64,000 nt of DNA from Sorangium aterium (GTDB lineage: Bacteria > Myxococcota_A > Polyangia > Polyangiales > Polyangiaceae): NCBI RefSeq assembly GCF_028368935.1, contig NZ_JAQNDK010000003.1, forward strand, positions 558,001 to 622,000, read 5' to 3'. The stretch's first letter is position 1. Each line of letters opens with the position of its first letter. The notes under the pieces were generated by a model. The model was not told the DNA's origin and made no database searches. It was given only the letters and a program-made list of their open reading frames with translations. Shown in pieces: positions 6,134-49,445 of the stretch. A program made the position numbers and the translations under genes.

Positions 6134-6744
6134 GCTTCGCCCGCAGGCGACCTCCATGAGGAAGCGCAGCCGGCTGAGTAGGGAGGGGGAGTGGAACAGA
6201 CGCGATGCGTCATGCGCGTGCTCCTCGTGCGTCATGTTCGCGTTCCTGGCGTGTGGTGCGCGCGCTCCCGGCGCGTCGTGCGCTGGGTCCTGCCGTGTCT
6301 GGCGGGTGGCGTGCAATGGCCCCCGCGTGTTGTTTGCGCGGTGTGCGCGCGCTCGCCCCGCCTGCGCGCGACGTTGTTCCGCGTGGTGCGCGCGTCCCGG
6401 TGCGTGGTGCGCGCGTTCCGGCGCGTGGTGCGCGCGTCCCGGTGCGTGGTGCGCGCGTTCCGGCGCGTGGTGCGCGCGTCCCGGCGCGTGGTGCGCTGGT
6501 GCGACCGCCGTCCCGCGCTTTCGCCCGCCGGCCTCGCGCGCGATCCCCGGCCGTCGTGGCGCTGCTCATCCTGCGCTTCGCGCGCGCCGCATCCTGCCAT
6601 GCGCGTCCCCGCCGGCGGCTGTGTGCCGTGTCCCGGGCGTGGTGCGCCCCTGCGCCTCATCGGATCGGGCTGTCGCGACGTGATCCTGCCCAGCAGAGGC
6701 GCCCGCTTTCCTTTCGTTGGCGCCCTCCCGTAGCCTCTCTTCTC
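6134..6744. other. Repeat-rich intergenic region
   Basis: About 610 bp with no credible gene. Frames run open through it only because it is built of cgtggtgcgcgcg-type units. A compact 21-bp tandem array lies at 6381-6495, and looser related copies start around 6220. Open frames covering it read as Arg/Val/Ala-rich low complexity in every phase. The promoter of the gene at 6745 should be near the right end, but I see no clear motif. Confidence 0.6.
6381..6495. repeat. 21-bp tandem repeat, about 5.5 copies
   Basis: Five complete 21-bp units of gcgtggtgcgcgcgt followed by cccggt, ttccggc or cccggc, then a partial sixth. The variable end alternates between the first two types in the first four units, giving a 42-bp higher-order period. 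That suggests duplication of a dimer. No spacer sequences exist, so this is not CRISPR. Confidence 0.85.
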
Positions 6745-27859: not shown

Positions 27860-29305
27860 GTGGGCGGAATCAGCGAGACGTGCAGCGTGTGCGGGACCGG
27901 ATTCGAGGTCCAGTTCCGGTACCAGATGGAGGAGAAGGACGGCGGCTTCTCCTTCTTCTGCTCGCAGAAATGCCTGGAAAAGAGCCATCTCGGCGGGCAG
28001 GACGGCGCCGCGCTCGCCACGTGCGACGCGTGCGCGAAGCGGTTTCCGCCGGATCTCGTGTCCCAGGTGCTCTACGTCGCCGGGCGCCGGCACTACGCGT
28101 GCTCGCTGGGGTGCCGGACGCAGCTGGTCCGTGAGGCGAAGGGGGCAAGGCTCGGCGACATCGCGGCGGCGGCCGCGGCGCCGGCCGAGGGGGCAACGCC
28201 GACCGGCGGCGAGGCGCCGCTGGCAGGAGGCGCCTCGCGCGCCGCCACGGAGGCAGCTGAGCCGGCGCCGCCGGCGGCTCGCGCGAGCGCACACGGCGAG
28301 GCGACGGGGCCGGCCGCGCCGGCCGTTGCGCAGGTCGCGTCTGCTGCTCGGCCGGCGGAGCTCAAGGGGCAGGGCGCGGTCGCGGTGCCCCTGTCGCCGG
28401 CGGGGGGCGCGAAGCGGCCCGCGCAGCCGCCGCAGCGGCCCGCCGGGGTGCCCCGCTGCCTGGCCGTGTTCAACCACAAGGGCGGTACGGGCAAGACGAC
28501 GACGGCCGTGAGCGTGGCGGCCGGGCTCGCGGCGCGCGACAAGCGGGTGCTCCTCGTCGACACCGACGCGCAGGGGAACGTCTCTGTCTCGCTCGGCGCG
28601 GGCGCGGAGCGGTCGCTCTATCACGTGCTCGTGATGGGGCTCCGGGTCGCGGACGCGACCAAGACGGTGCGCCCGAACCTGGATCTGCTGCCGTCCAACG
28701 AGACGCTCGCCGCGGCAGAGCTCTACCTGGCAGGGCGCCAGAACCGCGACCGCGTGCTCTCGGATCGCCTCTCCGCCGCGGCGGCCGAGTACGATTACGT
28801 GGTGCTCGACTGCTCGCCGAGCCTGTCGTTGATGAACCAGAACGCGCTGGTGTTCGCCGACAGCGTGCTCGTCCCGGTCGCGTGCGACTACCTGTCGCTC
28901 GTCGGCGTCCGGCAGGTGATCAAGACGGTGAAGAACGTGAACGCGCTGCTGCATCACCCGGTGCAGATCTGGGGCGTGCTGCCGACCTTCTACGACGGCC
29001 GCGCGAAGATCGCGCGCGAGGCGGTGAGCACGATGAAGCAGCACTTCGGAGAGCGCTGCCTCGCGCCGATCCGGCAGGCGATCAAGGTCAAGGAGGCGCC
29101 CGCGCAAGGGCAGACGATCTTCGAGTATGCGTCGGGAACCCCCGCCGCGGACGACTACCTCGCGGTGGTCGATCGCATCATCGAGAGCCGCGAGCGCGGC
29201 ACGGCGGGCTCCGAGGCAGGGGCGGCGCGCGACGGGACGGCGTGGAGCGTCGACCGGGTGGACGCGGGTACGGAGCGGCCGGGTGCTGCGGCGGCGGGTG
29301 CGTGA
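27860..29305 (+). CDS. ParA-family ATPase fused to an N-terminal zinc-finger region
   Basis: An orphan ParA homologue of 481 residues. The first 95 residues carry four Cys pairs: CSVC (8-11), FFCSQKC, CDAC and ACSLGC. This suggests two zinc ribbons or a TRASH-like treble clef. An Ala/Pro-rich linker (to about 205) leads to the ATPase: FNHKGGTGKTTTAVSVAAG (Walker A with the ParA Lys), LLVDTDAQGNVSVS and YVVLDCSPSL. I chose GTG 27860 because aaggag lies 6 bp upstream; ATG 27803 would add 19 residues. It precedes a repeat array of mini-ORFs and a ribbon-helix-helix-like gene. It probably positions some cargo other than the chromosome origin. Confidence 0.8.
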   Translation: MGGISETCSVCGTGFEVQFRYQMEEKDGGFSFFCSQKCLEKSHLGGQDGAALATCDACAKRFPPDLVSQVLYVAGRRHYACSLGCRTQLVREAKGARLGDIAAAAAAPAEGATPTGGEAPLAGGASRAATEAAEPAPPAARASAHGEATGPAAPAVAQVASAARPAELKGQGAVAVPLSPAGGAKRPAQPPQRPAGVPRCLAVFNHKGGTGKTTTAVSVAAGLAARDKRVLLVDTDAQGNVSVSLGAGAERSLYHVLVMGLRVADATKTVRPNLDLLPSNETLAAAELYLAGRQNRDRVLSDRLSAAAAEYDYVVLDCSPSLSLMNQNALVFADSVLVPVACDYLSLVGVRQVIKTVKNVNALLHHPVQIWGVLPTFYDGRAKIAREAVSTMKQHFGERCLAPIRQAIKVKEAPAQGQTIFEYASGTPAADDYLAVVDRIIESRERGTAGSEAGAARDGTAWSVDRVDAGTERPGAAAAGA

Positions 29306-29490
29306 AGGACCCGCGGACGCGGGGTTTCGCTGAATGAAGGGACCCGCGGACGCGGAGTCCCGCTGAATGAAGGGCCCGCACTCGCGGAGTCCCGCTGAAT
29401 GAAGGGACCCGCGGACGCGGGGTCCCGCTGAATGAAGGGACCCGCGGACGCGGGGTCCCGCTGAATGAAGGGCCCGCACTCGCGGAGCCT
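29302..29490 (+). repeat. 32-33 bp tandem repeat encoding a relay of mini-ORFs
   Basis: Six units (the last partial) of ctgaatgaagggacccgcg-type sequence lie between the ParA-like gene and the RHH-like gene. GTG 29302 overlaps the ParA stop and opens an 11-codon frame ending at 29337. ATG 29334, 29367, 29399, 29432 and 29465 follow at 33, 32, 33 and 33 bp. Each is overlapped by (ATGA) or directly preceded by (TGAATG) the previous stop. The short products read [21 protein letters not shown] and MKGPADAGSR (twice). The last ATG opens into the RHH-like gene. There are no spacers, so it is not CRISPR. Confidence 0.9.
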
Positions 29491-29518
29491 CGACCGGGCA
29501 GGGGAGCTGGAGGAAGCA

Positions 29519-29863
29519 ATGAAAAGCGAAGGCGATCTCGGGGGCGCCGCGCGGGCGCTGCTCGATCGCGACGAAGTGGAAGGTGTTTTGTCCGGGGCGT
29601 TCTATACGTCCACGGAAGTGCCTCGCGTGCGCGCAAAGGCCCGGACGACCGGCGCCGCATCCGAGCCGGGTGCTGCGCCGGCTCCCGAGAGACCGCAGCA
29701 CTACAAGGTCATCTGTATCTCGATGTACACCGAGGATCTCGAGCGGCTGGACGAGATGGTCAGCTCGCTCAAGGCGCGCGGGATGACCAAGGCCAACAGG
29801 AGCGCGCTGATCCGGCATGCGCTCTCCCAGGTCGATCTCGACAAGATCCCGAAGGGGATTTAA
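29519..29863 (+). CDS. Small ribbon-helix-helix-like protein, partner of ParA-like gene
   Basis: A 114-residue protein. ATG 29519 is chosen because ggagg lies 5 bp upstream; the alternative ATG 29465 comes from the last tandem repeat and adds 18 repeat-coded residues. Residues 61-105 ([20 protein letters not shown], then [20 protein letters not shown]) fit a beta strand plus two helices, as in CopG/ParG-type DNA-binding proteins. The first 35 residues are amphipathic and could contact the ATPase. Together with the upstream ParA it resembles a ParA/RHH partition pair. DNA binding is inferred from pattern only. Confidence 0.65.
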
Positions 29864-49237: not shown

Positions 49238-49445
49238 GCTTCTGACCCGAACGGGCTCCGCAGTCGATTCTGCGCTCGTCGCGTGCGACATGGGACGCTG
49301 GCGTGACATCGTTTGCCTGAGTGGTGTTCGCGCATGGGAAGCGCCCGTGTGGGGGGATATCGTGGCAGACGGGTACTGTGGAACCGGAGTGGAGGGGACG
49401 GCGAGCGCCGAGCCTCGAGCCAAGCTGCAAACCGAAAGGAGCCGC

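Follow-up and report, generated by a model that had tools for sequence, protein, structure and literature searches.

Results

A tandem repeat array between genes for a ParA-like and an RHH-like protein

The window analysed here is a stretch of 64 kb from a Sorangium genome of 13.5 Mb, and all positions are given on its forward strand (positions in the extracted locus L021 convert as window = L021 + 28018). Within the window, the genes for a ParA-like ATPase and an RHH-like protein are separated by a gap of 213 bp, most of which is occupied by six tandem units of 32 or 33 bp. The features of this locus, and a second copy of the repeat elsewhere in the window, are listed below with their scores under R2, a covariance model described further on.

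27860..29305, +, gene for a ParA-like ATPase, with a Cys domain at the N-terminus; exact start uncertain; Pfam AAA_31, 4.2e-50
29302..29464, +, chain of five mini-ORFs coupled stop to start, interpreted as incidental to the TGAATGA junction
29303..29334, +, repeat unit 1, 32 bp, stem partly decayed; R2 23.7 bits
29335..29367, +, repeat unit 2, 33 bp, 9/9 stem pairs; R2 45.9 bits, fold -17.1 kcal/mol
29368..29399, +, repeat unit 3, 32 bp, ACTC loop variant; R2 18.9 bits, E 0.0057
29400..29432, +, repeat unit 4, 33 bp; R2 43.9 bits
29433..29465, +, repeat unit 5, 33 bp, identical to unit 4; R2 43.9 bits
29466..29497, +, repeat unit 6, the last, ACTC loop variant; R2 23.9 bits
29509..29513, +, GGAGG, the Shine-Dalgarno sequence preceding the RHH-like gene; found in each of the five Sorangium species that have the locus
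29519..29863, +, RHH-like gene, so labelled from its appearance; a further ATG lies in frame at 29465
49390..49422, +, lone dispersed copy, the element's second occurrence in the window; lies upstream of an ORF that resembles a response regulator by eye; R2 34.8 bits

The array is a repeat far beyond chance, and TRF calls it independently with a period of 33 and 5.4 copies. Successive unit starts are spaced by 32, 33, 32, 33 and 33 bp, which agrees with the original prediction that unit length alternates between 33 and 32 bp. The span given there, 29302-29490, begins correctly and ends slightly short, as the last unit reaches about 29497. The TGA stop of the ParA-like gene (29303-29305) falls within unit 1. 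At its other end, the ParA-like protein carries an N-terminal, Cys-rich, zf-FCS-like domain (window 27860-28000) that scores 20.6 bits, slightly below the Pfam cut-off. The RHH-like protein has no Pfam match and a weak, unrelated PDB match, and its structure model has a mean pLDDT of 51. Orthology to CdbA was considered and dropped, with no CdbA among the PDB sequence matches. As for the single copy at 49390-49422, a near-identical neighbourhood is present in another Sorangium genome (G005, locus L229).

A unit-by-unit chain of mini-ORFs, seen in one of five genomes

The original prediction described five mini-ORFs of 10-11 codons, each coupled to the next through its stop and start codons, and the positions bear this out. 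The starts lie at 29302 (GTG) and at 29334, 29367, 29399 and 29432 (all ATG), the frames run for 11, 10, 11, 10 and 10 codons before a TGA, and a sixth ATG at 29465 continues in frame into the RHH-like gene. The first junction is a GTGA overlap with the ParA stop, and it is followed by two ATGA overlaps and three abutting TGA-ATG junctions. The string TGAATGA occurs six times in the 64-kb window, five of these in the array, where every junction reads this way. When unit size was varied at random in simulation from 24 to 42, coupling was kept at all lengths that are 0 or 2 mod 3 and lost at all that are 1 mod 3. Because coupling held for all lengths in these two classes, the alternation of 32 and 33 bp needs no selection, and the coupling amounts to a single junction present in five copies.

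A functional translational relay would have ribosomes leaving parA re-initiate along the mini-ORFs, such that a set fraction reaches the RHH-like gene and the copy number of the repeat tunes the ratio of the two proteins. All five junctions are coupled in the window's strain, in keeping with this idea, and the excerpted text of PMC10666635 describes termination-reinitiation at short overlaps of the same junction type as common and as working with the last 15 nt of the upstream gene. However, that text concerns real gene pairs, whereas the ORFs here are repeat units whose chain is not conserved. In addition, the RHH-like gene has a Shine-Dalgarno sequence of its own, and coupling arises automatically in two of the three unit-length classes.

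Comparison across the genus bears directly on the relay. Six Sorangium genomes were compared, the window's own (G000) and five others (G001-G005), and the RHH-like gene is found in five of them; it was not found in G002, an assembly that is 89% complete. All five genomes with the gene have a hairpin array at the same place, in each case starting on the parA stop codon, and in each a start codon (GTGA or ATGA) overlaps the ParA stop, which is a point in favour of the relay. The ParA stop and the RHH start lie 213 bp apart in G000, 146 bp in G001, 277 bp in G003, 147 bp in G004 and 521 bp in G005. Despite this shared layout, the unit-by-unit relay is present in G000 only, and the four sister species retain the array and lose the coupling of each unit to the next. 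In G005 the array forms an open frame of up to 360 codons with one coupled junction near its start, and this frame runs past the RHH start to overlap the RHH-like gene out of frame. G003 has ORFs of 65 and 15 codons, both of which stop before the RHH-like gene, with one coupled junction within the array, and no stop-start chain was found in the G004 spacer. Only G001 offers something comparable, two ORFs of 19 and 30 codons in an irregular chain that extends to the RHH start, and this too speaks for a relay.

A chain from ParA to RHH, defined by ATG or GTG starts within -4 to +3 nt of a stop, is thus seen in two of the five real spacers (G000 and G001) and missing from G003, G004 and G005. Shuffled spacers have such chains as often or more: out of 400 shuffles each, 122 for G000, 242 for G001, 299 for G003, 94 for G004 and 248 for G005, a rate of 23-75% in which long read-through frames are counted as chains. 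About 2.5 of five would be expected and two are seen. The chain as such is ordinary, and what is peculiar to G000 is the number of its steps, which is due to the repeats. The original prediction had named, as an observation that would tell against it, relatives whose repeats break the stop-start phase without effect; the broken phase, the first half of that statement, is what the sister species have. Its functional relay therefore goes unsupported, and we regard a selected relay as very improbable, although in this strain coupled translation may still take place as a physical event. The other course that it had considered, a chance junction followed by amplification, is favoured by the automatic phase of the simulated coupling and by the absence of the unit-by-unit relay from the sisters.

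The repeat unit is a structured palindrome dispersed through the genus

The unit of the array is a palindromic element with a 9-bp stem (5 + 4, with a 1-nt bulge), a 4-nt loop and a conserved flank, and it repeats every 33 or 36 bp. Its structure is conserved. Across 45 units (42 of them distinct), 97.1% of stem cells are paired, compared with 39-52% in slid-alignment controls, and compensatory double changes affect five pairs and 38 cells, a level that none of 500 shuffles attained. The arms interchange as whole pairs (GGGAC/GTCCC, GGGGA/TCCCC, GGGGG/CCCCC, GGGGC/GCCCC and GGCGC/GCGCC), and at the two outermost stem positions G-C pairs occur in 38 and 40 of the 42 distinct units. The tail has the consensus GACCCACGTYG over 55 copies. 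An earlier covariation test, which used 22 units taken largely from the parA arrays, had given no more double changes than shuffles and is superseded by the 45-unit set. Most units are free of stops: 26 of the 45 have no stop in any of the six frames, whereas 15 are open in five frames and four in four. An Rfam search returned two sub-threshold matches only (E 0.52 and 0.56), and no description of the element was found in the titles and abstract starts of the open-licence papers listed on Sorangium and on myxobacterial palindromic repeats.

Covariance models were built from 22 units (R1) and then from 45 units of the genus genomes (R2). At E<=0.001, R2 finds at least 160 matches in all six genus genomes (27, 19, 22, 31, 27 and 34), counts that are lower bounds, as 150 of tens of thousands of candidates were scored per genome. 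Across 28 genomes outside the genus, which serve as a fair control because R2 was trained on genus genomes, it finds one match in total among the 150 candidates scored per genome. The earlier R1 at E<=1 gave weak matches in nine of nine outside genomes, the best with an E of 8.6e-4. Among the matches listed, 150 of the 160 R2 matches fall into 91 loci, with 14-17 loci per genome. Arrays make up 22 of the 91 listed loci, and 55 of the 59 steps within them are 33 or 36 bp. Opposite-strand pairs within 1 kb are nearly absent, with one pair, 436 bp apart, among the 91 loci taken at one coordinate each. Two genes of the window's genome that Pfam identifies have relatives of the unit: a MutS-domain gene, at its end, and a sigma-70 gene, in its N-terminal part. 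Two further arrays of the same element, with a 36-bp period and a similar neighbourhood, were noted at G000:C1:2554711-2554887 (L117, 5 units) and G004:C1:9723487-9723843 (L122, 10 units). A separate scan with a loose pattern of up to two mismatches was rejected as evidence of dispersal: it exceeded its reversed control in G000 (10 vs 3), G003 (8 vs 5) and G005 (22 vs 1) and stayed at control level in G001 (8 vs 11) and G004 (10 vs 13).

These dispersed copies bear on another account of the array, namely a plain local minisatellite outside any wider family. In G003 and G005 the units are nearly identical (mean 0.33 and 0.65 differences per 23-nt core), as a minisatellite would lead one to expect, and concerted evolution is clear in these two species. 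It is not a general pattern, as the units of G000, G001 and G004 (6, 4 and 3 units used) vary within species about as much as between them. A purely local repeat is contradicted by relatives that conserve the structure at the 91 listed loci and by the clean filled and empty sites described below, and we consider it extremely improbable.

Filled and empty sites inside protein genes

Four genes with a clean coding context, chosen as cases and not as a sample, were compared with their orthologues in the genus. Three are identified by Pfam, as ETF alpha (etfA), a HEAT-repeat gene and an aminotransferase of class I/II; the fourth looks flavoenzyme- or halogenase-like by eye and has no Pfam match in the stretch given. 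They hold six sites at which the copies appear as in-frame differences of 33-39 nt, all multiples of three, against empty orthologous sites.

HEAT-repeat gene, site 1: filled in G002 and G003; empty in G000, G001, G004 and G005
HEAT-repeat gene, site 2: 39 nt as aligned; filled in G001 and G004; empty in the other four
Aminotransferase gene: 33 or 36 nt depending on alignment; filled in G004 and G005; empty in G000-G003
Fourth, flavoenzyme-like gene: filled in G005; empty in G000, G001, G003 and G004; a partial match in G002 left out
etfA, site A: 36 nt; filled in G003 and G005; empty in G000, G001, G004 and four aligned outgroups
etfA, site B: 33 nt; filled in G000 only

The etfA gene also gives a direction to the change. 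Four of seven outgroup loci were aligned, and these are empty at site A and without the element at site B, where two of them have 6 extra nt; insertion is for this reason favoured over deletion. A further element match lies near the HEAT-repeat gene (L172, 6939-6971), in a stretch whose length varies among genomes.

Residence within genes is the less common state. A strict two-sided test places 19 of the 84 classifiable loci within a gene, compared with 296 of 500 random windows from the same loci (of the 91 loci, six were too short to classify and one had no sequence). Copies are rarer within genes than random windows are, as expected if many insertions harm. The 19 gene-internal loci are split in direction, ten having the gene in the element's orientation and nine in the opposite one.

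The RHH-like gene outside the genus

The RHH-like gene extends well beyond Sorangium, to 52 of the 59 genomes searched, the window's own included. All 25 of its outside-genus loci have a ParA-type P-loop frame by motif, which in a few of them (L043 and L044, for example) is possibly another gene. The RHH motif could be placed in 18 of the 25, at 149-312 nt downstream of the ParA stop, and four outside spacers (L028, L029, L032 and L033) measure 75, 59, 17 and 27 nt up to the start of the match. An R2 search of the 25 outside-genus loci gave no element match at E<=0.1.

The breadth of the gene weighs on the possibility that the array is a centromere or operator. The RHH-like protein would then bind it as part of a ParA/RHH partition system or a nucleoid-protein system, and the dispersed copies would be additional targets. 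The array is indeed flanked by ParA-like and RHH-like genes, and the excerpted text of PMC7156744 has RHH proteins typically binding direct or inverted repeats and Myxococcus CdbA binding hundreds of sites. However, the gene is in 52 of 59 genomes, yet among the candidates scored the element gave one match across the 28 outside genomes, and with no match at any of the 25 outside loci the repeat site is not conserved with the gene pair. The RHH fold itself is putative, the Pfam and PDB searches having given no match to it, and so is kinship with CdbA. We judge a binding site of this kind to be quite improbable.

A role at the level of RNA is unlikely, though less so. By this account, which is compatible with a dispersed insertion element, the run of hairpins in the operon mRNA might stabilise the parA message or lower downstream expression. 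The strand at 29296-29540 is predicted to fold better than its shuffles (z -3.81, 0 of 200), two single units from the window are predicted to fold at -17.1 and -17.7 kcal/mol, and hairpin arrays are retained in all five species. Against a role tied to this operon, the same element is found at 14-17 loci per genome among the matches listed, and the 25 outside-genus loci have the RHH-like gene without the element.

Discussion

Our analysis indicates that the array between the ParA-like and RHH-like genes very probably arose when a short palindromic insertion element, dispersed through Sorangium, was amplified locally in tandem. The element is best read as genus-specific and as similar to the REP and RPE families. 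Its movement would account for its dispersal, with copies settling both between and inside genes; in the latter case a gene would gain 33-39 bp (11-13 codons) with the frame kept, and the protein would acquire a short peptide. At the locus studied here, a copy probably inserted on the parA stop codon, and the element's own A would complete the TGA, leaving the end of parA unchanged. Because the array begins on the stop codon in all five species, the element would supply the last base of the parA stop if insertion took place at TG. The copy may then have expanded to about 3-15 units depending on the species, probably via replication slippage or unequal exchange, and in the window's strain the unit junction TGAATGA gives the look of a ribosome relay. 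A candidate target-site duplication, the YG dinucleotide that flanks the element, recurs at +36 in 20 of 55 copies and at +33 in 18 of 55, and some copies counted as single have degenerate neighbours.

Short palindromes living within protein genes occur in Rickettsia, Wolbachia and some REP-rich bacteria. To our knowledge, how such gene-dwelling palindromes spread without a dedicated enzyme is an open question in the field. For the Sorangium element, the RAYT transposase was considered as mobiliser and rejected: its family (PF01797, Y1_Tnp), the one covered by the transposase search, has no match in any of the six genus genomes, and a control search matched 5 of 14 well-known genomes. We give an even chance to the fuller proposal that Sorangium holds a family of very short palindromic insertion elements, as yet undescribed, which moves without a known transposase, and whose size of 33 or 36 bp and mostly stop-free frames would let it invade working genes and add peptides of 11-13 residues. 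Such a family would be a source of protein and operon variation, and the five-step relay of this strain an accident.

One of the closest known systems is the CGTC-tagged REP superfamily, as treated in the excerpted text of PMC3733652, a paper in which the terms Sorangium and myxo do not appear. CGTC-tagged REPs are defined by a stem of 8-9 bp, a loop of 4-5 nt and a short unpaired tail that is mostly CCA, and the 9-bp stem and 4-nt loop of the Sorangium element lie within this range. Both kinds of repeat are found between genes and in frame within genes. The same excerpt describes REPs inside genes and CGTC repeats without a dedicated transposase; for the Sorangium element the search for a transposase covered PF01797 and gave no match. 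The differences are nonetheless several. The first and second stem positions are complementary A-T in the CGTC-tagged repeats and G-C in the Sorangium element, which has an added 1-nt bulge. The CGTC tag lies at one end of the former; its putative counterpart in the latter is a set of CGTC-like letters that stand some 7 nt away from the stem, within the tail. Finally, head-to-head dimers predominate among the CGTC-tagged repeats as excerpted, whereas the Sorangium element forms head-to-tail, same-strand arrays (22).

The GTAG REPs associated with RAYT are likewise short dispersed palindromes near gene ends, and according to the excerpt of PMC3733652 they often provide stop codons to neighbouring genes, much as the Sorangium element seems to supply a TGA. 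In contrast to them, the Sorangium consensus has no GTAG tag, and the genus genomes have no Y1_Tnp. The Rickettsia palindromic elements are also in-frame palindromes within conserved protein genes (PMC2229807, in the part that treats Ogata et al. 2000). They are described there as 105-146 bp long with 12-bp terminal inverted repeats, whereas the Sorangium element adds 33-39 bp, resides in a GC-rich myxobacterium and forms tandem arrays.

The large myxobacterial genomes provide a compact case, in that six related species differ cleanly in whether sites in genes such as etfA are filled or empty, and the Sorangium element makes the insertion mechanism, the choice of target and the tolerance of proteins directly testable. 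The locus also carries a caution, in that stop-start chains in repeat arrays should not be taken for regulation. Elsewhere in the window, at 6380-6496, lies a tandem array with a period of 42 bp (98% matches), for which ARAGORN gives a doubtful tRNA call that has no clear anticodon.
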